Made by a program: the position numbers and the translations under genes. DNA of 64,000 nt from Candidatus Peregrinibacteria bacterium CG11_big_fil_rev_8_21_14_0_20_49_14 (GTDB lineage: Bacteria; Patescibacteriota; Gracilibacteria; Peribacterales; Peribacteraceae), in assembly GCA_002787035.1 (NCBI GenBank), contig PCVP01000014.1, positions 1 to 64,000 of the forward strand, given 5' to 3'. Below, one piece after another: positions 14,090 through 54,608 of the stretch; position 1 is the first letter of the stretch, and each line of letters starts with the position of its first letter. The notes below the pieces were generated by a model, which had not been told where the DNA came from, ran no database searches, and worked only from the letters and a program-made list of their open reading frames with translations.

Positions 14090-14275
14090 GAGTCCGTGGG
14101 AGGAAATAAGCCTGTCCTGAGCTCGCCGAAGGGCAGGTTTCTTCGAACTCGAATTACGGAGGGCTCTTCGACTCGCTTCGCTTGTTCAGAGTCATTCGAT
14201 ACTCTCATTAGTACGAAAAATGAGTCCGTGGTTTACCATGAGCGAAGCGAACGAAGTGAGCGGAGTCGAATGGTA
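14090..14275. repeat. REP-like palindromic cluster abutting the 3' end of tRNA-Arg
   Basis: Contains CCTGTCCTGAGCTCGCCGAAGGGCAGG and GGTTTACCATGAGCGAAGCGAACGAAGTGAGCGGAGTCGAATGGTA; flanked by 10-bp direct repeat gagtccgtgg (14090-14099, 14222-14231). Confidence 0.8.
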
Positions 14276-14347
14276 CCCCGGACAGGGATCGAACCTGTGA
14301 CCTACAGCTTAGAAGGCTGCCGCTCTATCCAACTGAGCTACCGGGGC
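14271..14347 (-). tRNA. tRNA-Arg(TCT), CCA encoded
   Basis: GCCCCGGTAGCTCAGTTGGATAGAGCGGCAGCCTTCTAAGCTGTAGGTCACAGGTTCGATCCCTGTCCGGGGTACCA. Confidence 0.95.
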
Positions 14348-50880: not shown

Positions 50881-51027
50881 TGGTTTATCATGAGCGAGGG
50901 TAAGGAGGGGCAGTTCGACTCACTTTGCTACGCTTCGTTCGCTCACTGTCATTAGACTTTTTTGGAGATTTTAATGGTTTACCATGAGCGAGGAGTTCGC
51001 TGAAAGCGAACGACGAGTCGAATGGTG
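50880..51027. repeat. REP-like palindromic cluster abutting the 3' end of tRNA-Ile
   Basis: aatggtttaccatgagcgaggagttcgctgaaagcgaacgacgagtcgaatggt plus a second inverted unit tggtttatcatgagcgaggg. Confidence 0.85.
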
Positions 51028-51099
51028 GGCCAGGGTGGACTTGAACCACCGACCTCCGGTTTATAAGTCCGGGGCTCTAACCAGCTGAGCTACTGGCCC
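51023..51099 (-). tRNA. tRNA-Ile(TAT), CCA encoded
   Basis: GGGCCAGTAGCTCAGCTGGTTAGAGCCCCGGACTTATAAACCGGAGGTCGGTGGTTCAAGTCCACCCTGGCCCACCA; anticodon loop CTTATAA. Confidence 0.85.
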
Positions 51100-54292: not shown

Positions 54293-54370
54293 GGGTGGTT
54301 AGCTCAGTTGGTCTAGAGCGTCTGGTTTACACCCAGAAGGTCACTGGTTCGACTCCAGTACCACCCACCA
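54293..54370 (+). tRNA. tRNA-Val(TAC), CCA encoded
   Basis: GGGTGGTTAGCTCAGTTGGTCTAGAGCGTCTGGTTTACACCCAGAAGGTCACTGGTTCGACTCCAGTACCACCCACCA. Confidence 0.95.
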
Positions 54371-54545
54371 TTCTACTCGTCGTTCCTTTCAGCGAACTCC
54401 TCGCTCATGGTAAACCATTCAATTCGTTCCTCACTTCGCTCTTCGCTCACATGGTAAACCACGATTCTCTTTTTGATCGAATCGAATGAGTCTGTTTACC
54501 ATGAACGAAGTTGAATGGAGCGAACGGAGCGTATCGGAGTGATTC
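54367..54545. repeat. REP-like palindromic cluster abutting the 3' end of tRNA-Val
   Basis: ACCATTCTACTCGTCGTTCCTTTCAGCGAACTCCTCGCTCATGGTAAACCATTC...CACATGGTAAACCACG then inverted gtttaccatgaacgaagttgaatgg. Confidence 0.85.
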
Positions 54546-54608
54546 GAAGACCCTACAAAACACATATCCGATAATTGACAAGAGTAATTTATAGGTTACT
54601 TTGTCTTT

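Follow-up and report, generated by a model that had tools for sequence, protein, structure and literature searches.

The locus analyzed here raises a specific question: why does a hairpin repeat of about 45 bases begin exactly at the CCA of tRNA genes that are otherwise unrelated? The initial annotation had offered two answers, a REP-type element that targets tRNA 3' CCA ends, or a conserved trailer that affects 3' processing. We compared the copies in the window (the whole 64,000-nt stretch of DNA) with those in its source genome, designated G000, and in other genomes, where further G numbers denote relatives and L numbers denote individual loci. The repeat, carried by small Peribacteria-like bacteria, looks like a minute mobile DNA for which the universal tRNA tail serves as a harmless landing site. 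Judged from the sequences, it is probably a REP-like, non-autonomous mobile element that inserts 3' of ACCA, with the great majority of its surviving copies at tRNA or tmRNA tails.

Repeat units in the window and its source genome

Units of 42-48 nt, TTCNACTC...GCTCATGGTAAACCA, abut the CCA of tRNA-Val, tRNA-Ile and tRNA-Arg in the window. The two head-to-tail units claimed to start from the tRNA-Val CCA were confirmed at 54371-54417 and 54418-54461, and the nearly identical trailer reported at tRNA-Ile and the variant reported at tRNA-Arg were both found, each abutting the CCA; the remaining three tRNAs of the window are without a unit. The features are as follows:

54293..54370, + strand: tRNA-Val(tac), the target, with encoded CCA at 54368-54370 (ARAGORN; Rfam tRNA, 72.7 bits)
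54371..54417, + strand: unit 1, TTCTACTCG, stem, CTCGCTCATGGTAAACCA; abuts the CCA and ends in ACCA
54418..54461, + strand: unit 2, TTCAATTCG...CATGGTAAACCA, head to tail after the ACCA of unit 1
54462..54482, + strand: spacer separating unit 2 from the inverted part
54483..54553, - strand: inverted second half, BIME/REPIN-like (inverted repeats I1 and I2)
51023..51099, - strand: tRNA-Ile(tat), the second occupied tRNA (ARAGORN)
50975..51022, - strand: unit of tRNA-Ile, 48 nt, abuts the CCA; identical to a non-tRNA copy (G000:C3:41549)
50908..50974, - strand: spacer and inverted half of tRNA-Ile, terminal GTCGAACTGCCC, a right end common to long units elsewhere
14271..14347, - strand: tRNA-Arg(tct), the third occupied tRNA (ARAGORN)
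14229..14270, - strand: variant unit of tRNA-Arg, 42 nt, abuts the CCA; identical to the unit at tRNA-Val(gac) of the source genome
14161..14228, - strand: spacer and inverted half of tRNA-Arg, terminal GTCGAAGAGCCC

Unit 1 reads TTCTACTCG...CATGGTAAACCA and is 74% identical to unit 2 across the 38 nt compared, and positions 54494-54518 are the reverse complement of a third copy (CCATTCAACTTCGTTCATGGTAAAC).

Across 161 distinct copies, the conserved TTCGACTC and GCTCATGG enclose 141 different inner segments, which fold more stably than their shuffles (mean of -7.2 versus -2.3 kcal/mol); this inner stem is varied yet mostly paired, a pattern compatible also with selection on the hairpin. A second small hairpin, TGG..CCA with at least 4 bp, is present in 148 of the 161 copies against about 33 expected from shuffles, most commonly as TGGTAAACCA and with compensated forms that include TGGCAAGCCA and TGGTCTTCGACCA. 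In most copies, TGG(T) is complementary to the CCA on both sides, that is, to the tRNA CCA or to the unit's own terminal CCA. The ACCAT/ATGGT inverted repeat noted initially is therefore present, but the accompanying suggestion that a trailer hairpin holds the tRNA CCA did not stand for the tRNA-Val copy of the window, in whose predicted RNA and DNA folds TGGT pairs with the downstream ACCA and the tRNA CCA is left free; for two other copies, the predicted RNA fold prefers pairing of TGG with the tRNA CCA. Copying of the right arm from the target was considered and mostly rejected, ATGGT remaining the usual arm at serine tRNAs with G73.

The source genome (1.44 Mb) has 43 tRNA matches, and CCA is encoded by all 42 tRNAs with readable trailers. 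Six of these 42 carry the unit at offset 0, namely Arg-tct, Ile-tat, Met-cat, Val-cac, Val-gac and Val-tac. At Arg-tcg and Leu-cag, the gene's own 3' end of about 20 nt is recopied 115-120 nt downstream and the unit lies behind the second copy. Three clear copies lie away from tRNAs, and ACCA itself occurs about 9,000 times on both strands. As a separate observation, recopied tRNA 3' ends of about 20 nt (Arg-tcg, Leu-cag, Arg-gcg) are located 100-170 nt downstream of their genes at L036 and L076 of the source genome and at L309; at a tRNA-Val (L196), about five tandem units of roughly 61 nt each carry the 3' end again, and 3' fragments also lie downstream of Thr-ggt and Trp.

Junctions, targets and unit ends across genomes

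The junction of a T-arm with CCATTCGAC was found in 73 cases, in 22 of 40 relatives and at many isotypes, while the reversed control gave 0; in an even draw across the phylum, 11 of 118 genomes contained it. The junction thus recurs at other tRNAs in relatives, as expected if the first reading of the initial annotation holds. Against these 73 cases at offset 0, a search for T-arm plus TTCGACT gave about six further cases at 1-30 nt past the CCA, a number that leaves out the other rows, which are offset-0 cases read through CCACCA. With a junction pattern that did not require A before the CCA, the preceding base was A in 64 and G in nine of the 73 junctions, versus 25:18 in the tRNAs of the source genome (p=0.0005), and all nine G cases are serine-type tails. 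For any given tRNA, as identified by its anticodon, at most about 5 of 24 family genomes are occupied, and most tRNAs are unoccupied.

Searches that were blind to tRNAs led to the same sites. A pattern without tRNA content retrieved 65 hairpins in 24 relatives, about 50 of them exactly at a tRNA CCA as identified by T-arm pattern or ARAGORN, whereas random use of ACCA would place 0.4% at tRNA ends, or 4% if a tenth of the sites is assumed to be tolerated. Since ACCA alone predicts so little, the preference would require an added tRNA/tmRNA feature or much better tolerance at these sites. A scan of GTDB species genomes with ACCATTCGACTN{12,40}GCTCATGGT, which needs an A before the CCA, yielded at least 115 stretches with at least 121 distinct copies. 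Among the matches listed, a tRNA or tmRNA 3' CCA is the exact start of 97 of 121 copies: 81 at tRNA ends called by ARAGORN, 10 at tmRNA ends (most by ARAGORN or Rfam; L201 by sequence only), and 6 with a T-arm at truncated or unrecognised tRNAs. Six more, some assigned by eye, start at 3'-terminal pieces of tRNAs or at a tandem copy, and 18 copies lie elsewhere. tRNA and tmRNA ends therefore dominate over other sites, a comparison that the initial annotation had proposed as a check. The ~9,000 ACCA sites, the exact-junction counts, the tRNA-blind scans and the offset test together rule out chance placement.

By record title, the carriers among the matches listed include Peribacteria/Peregrinibacteria, Komeili-, Falkow-, Uhr-, Doudna-, Buchanan-, Berkel- and Saccharibacteria, together with MAGs labelled Omnitrophota, Armatimonadetes, Acidobacteria and Actinomycetota, although MAG misbinning could affect these outlying phyla. 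The idea that the non-tRNA copies mark unannotated RNAs was rejected: several proved to be at tmRNA, and others either drew no local Rfam match or are located at coding genes. The non-tRNA copies at L003, L144, L154, L263 and L264 adjoin look-alike short frames on the opposite strand (MVDILRKSLHRLEQLILG, MVETLKKSLNRLMEQVFG, MVEMIRNSWNQIIEYV).

The TTCGAC..GCTCA core also occurs with other complementary arms (CCC/GGG, CAG/CTG and CTC/GAG). For the CCC/GGG type, with about 90 copies in 15 relatives, 2 of 30 inspected copies are at a tRNA end, both in G027, exactly behind the CCA and with partial CA/TG pairing; since such copies are rarely found there, it is the CCA/TGG arm to which the tRNA address belongs. 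A second family (CCACGTAAA..TTACGTGG) was considered as another tRNA-end repeat and set aside, 2 of 4 strict copies being adjacent, which is too few. Several further trailers were observed. Unrelated palindromes use the tRNA CCA as hairpin foot at L022 (tRNA-Asp, GCCACGCCTCACATGTGAGGCGTGGC), L075 (Leu-gag), L021 (Gly-tcc) and L069 (Gln-ttg), and the tRNA-Ser genes gga and tga (L073, L074) share a trailer, CCCGTCTTCGTTCGCC..GGTGGCTCATAAACTATTACAGG, that abuts the CCA and is near-identical over about 55 nt. A third trailer family, CGTGAAAGGAAACC..GGTTTCC..CACGG (L017, L033, L039, L042), lies a few nt past the CCA of Thr-tgt, Arg-gcg and Cys; a diverged version follows Arg-cct.

The ends of the unit were read from pairs of copies at different sites. 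Identical units of 45-51 nt at different loci stop at or just after ...ACCA and have no more than 4-7 upstream nt in common: a tmRNA copy in G014 and a non-tRNA copy in G012 share an identical 51 nt from after the ACCA to the terminal AAACCA, and the tRNA-Ile unit and C3:41549 of the source genome likewise share 48 nt, with an upstream identity of 6-7 nt in both pairs. For most pairs compared between different genes, the flanks stop matching 3-8 nt upstream of the junction; where unrelated tRNAs, tmRNA and protein genes carry identical units, almost nothing is shared beyond (A)CCA, and two pairs at related tRNAs have longer upstream identity, as expected. Long pairs extend over about 113-130 nt, several of them stopping at GTCGAACTGCCC or GAAGAGCC, and include the inverted second repeat, so that both these inverted-doublet units and the 45-51 nt single units are shared between loci.

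Protein genes provide a view of the target. The MetRS genes of G005 (L327) and of L282 contain the element in antisense orientation and in frame, encoding the peptide HERGPKGRVE / HERGPQGRVE before WWDDA. Because most of the element-free MetRS relatives compared carry a native TGGTGG (CCACCA on the element strand), the ACCA belongs to the target there; this occupied/empty comparison concerns MetRS only, and its right side is partly resolved. In a Komeilibacterium (L277), the element is located at a duplicated GAPDH-like gene end, behind a native ACCA (TGGTAC of WYDNEWGY); the 3' end of this gene (WYDNEWGYANRLVDMIGQ) is present on both sides of the inserted repeat-bearing stretch. The observed pattern is that of insertion at a short target without target duplication, with ACCA in most copies and upstream identity stopping there. 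Taken at the sequence level, these comparisons show an exact junction, defined unit ends and a pre-existing ACCA at one non-tRNA target, and they place the same unit at tRNAs unrelated to each other, at tmRNA and at protein genes, with TGG-CCA complementarity on both sides.

Proposed mechanism and alternative explanations

In the mechanism that we propose, the mobile unit would span about 35-51 nt, arranged as TTCGACTC, a variable self-complementary stem, GCTCATGGT, a short loop and ACCA, or about 113-130 nt when the inverted second repeat is included. Insertion would take place directly 3' of ACCA, less often of GCCA and once of TCCA; as the unit itself would terminate in ACCA, this would explain the head-to-tail arrays in the window and at L258 and L239. 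The unit may transit in single-stranded form, each of its ends being cut 3' of an ACCA, with TGG(T) as the putative guide for both cuts, resembling the guide-target pairing of IS200/IS605. In the closest mechanistic model, the single-strand transposition of IS200/IS605 and TnpA-REP, cutting is directed by bases close to the hairpin, and altered guides shift the cut sites (PMC6006769, PMC8266576). The tRNA preference could arise from target structure combined with tolerance of insertions there, and an insertion at a tRNA or tmRNA tail would leave the RNA intact, with its CCA kept.

The unit is too short to code and has no Y1 transposase gene of its own. The only Y1 transposase of the source genome is an ordinary IS200-type one that no repeats flank; the richest genome, G014 with 13 junctions, contains none, and PF01797 is absent from the repeat-rich genomes G014, G002, G009, G001 and G006. 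Among the 12 Y1 loci examined, no repeat-flanked Y1 gene and no cognate RAYT were found. Nor was a GTAG/CGTC tag found at the hairpin foot, where the conserved bases are instead TTCGACTC and GCTCATGGT. Replication strands, between which single-strand transposition might produce a bias, did not differ in an underpowered comparison based on 8 kb GC skew. It is conceivable, if doubtful, that the repeats represent CCA-tail-addressed, TGG-guided mobile DNA moved by an enzyme other than Y1/RAYT and spread across Patescibacteria and several other phyla.

A cis-acting tRNA trailer, with a hairpin that governs 3' maturation or terminates transcription and copies selected at tRNA genes, seems unlikely. 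Such a role would fit the exact CCA junction, the possible CCA-TGG pairing, the inner stems that vary in sequence while mostly keeping their pairing, and the several unrelated hairpin families that likewise begin at a tRNA CCA elsewhere in the source genome (arms of at least 6 bp at 12% of tRNAs versus 2% of random CCA). It is at odds with the element's presence within MetRS and other genes, with the lack of a long T-run after the hairpin, and with the window copy, whose TGG is predicted to pair with its own downstream ACCA and not with the tRNA CCA. Because no tRNA is occupied in more than about 5 of 24 related genomes and most tRNAs are empty, a general trailer function is argued against, as it is by units at unrelated tRNAs and non-tRNA sites; a local side effect on pre-tRNA processing may occur where a unit is present. 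Of the two initial answers, the REP-type element targeting CCA ends is thus strongly supported by the tRNA-blind searches, the offset test and the relatives, and the conserved trailer is disfavoured as a general function.

Spread at the RNA level, in which a released CCA-ending trailer RNA is joined to the 3' end of a mature tRNA or tmRNA and copied back to DNA, would accommodate the use of both kinds of tail and a unit that spans one CCA to the next, but the antisense copies in MetRS and other coding genes, at ACCA matching no known RNA 3' end, make it highly improbable. Tyrosine integrases commonly attach at tRNA 3' ends, and a minority of loci, where some 20 nt from the tRNA 3' end recur 90-225 nt downstream and the second copy is the one that precedes the unit (Arg-tcg and Leu-cag of the source genome, L309, and the L196 tandem), recall remnants of their integration. 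This origin for the repeats is nevertheless extremely unlikely: one tiny unit recurs across many isotypes, and the 3-8 nt of upstream identity in most compared pairs is far below an att core.

Comparison with known systems

Integrases and eukaryotic retrotransposons classically use tRNA genes as safe places to land. In the literature searched, we found neither a description of a bacterial REP-like element whose landing site is the CCA tail as such, of tRNA and of tmRNA, nor any mention of REP-like repeats located at the CCA ends of tRNAs. Target choice in the REP class becomes directly testable here, with ACCA as target, TGG as proposed guide and both ends of the unit readable from sequence. 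In the rtT repeats of E. coli tyrT, tRNA 3' ends are repeated in tandem downstream of the gene; the L196 tRNA-Val tandem resembles them, the difference being that few loci are of this kind and that the main element has no tRNA sequence beyond CCA. In the T-box antiterminator, UGGN of the RNA pairs with NCCA of the tRNA, which is an analogy only, as TGG here lies in cis behind the tRNA gene, with no aptamer or leader gene.

The element resembles REP, BIME and REPIN sequences (RAYT, TnpA-REP) in being a short imperfect palindrome that is mostly intergenic and multi-copy (at least 121 GTDB copies, up to a low ~10 per family genome), occurring as singlets and as tandem and inverted pairs, the long units being inverted-doublet-like. 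It departs from REP/RAYT in its address to the tRNA/tmRNA CCA, in having neither the GTAG/CGTC tag nor a flanked RAYT, and in its ~10 copies per genome; because two defining features were tested and found to be absent, we do not class it as RAYT-REP. The searched portions of the REPIN, TnpA-REP and HuH survey texts do not mention tRNA, and those of the GTAG/CGTC paper mention tRNA-related protein genes only (PMC3116915, PMC8266576, PMC6006769, PMC3733652). Rickettsia palindromic elements (RPE) and small MITE-like repeats are likewise tiny palindromes that sometimes lie in frame within genes, as the MetRS copies do. Occurrences of RPEs within tmRNA and RNase P RNA genes have been reported (PMC2229807), unlike the element described here, which leaves the RNA gene uninterrupted and is placed exactly behind the CCA. 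Compared with IS200/IS605, the repeat is transposase-free and directed to tRNA tails, and a single TGG, 3' of the first hairpin, seemingly serves both sides; with the ends of IS608 and ISDra2 it nevertheless shares insertion 3' of a fixed short target outside the element and hairpin ends, and its TGG may correspond to their guide bases, which are complementary to the site of cutting (PMC6006769, PMC8266576).
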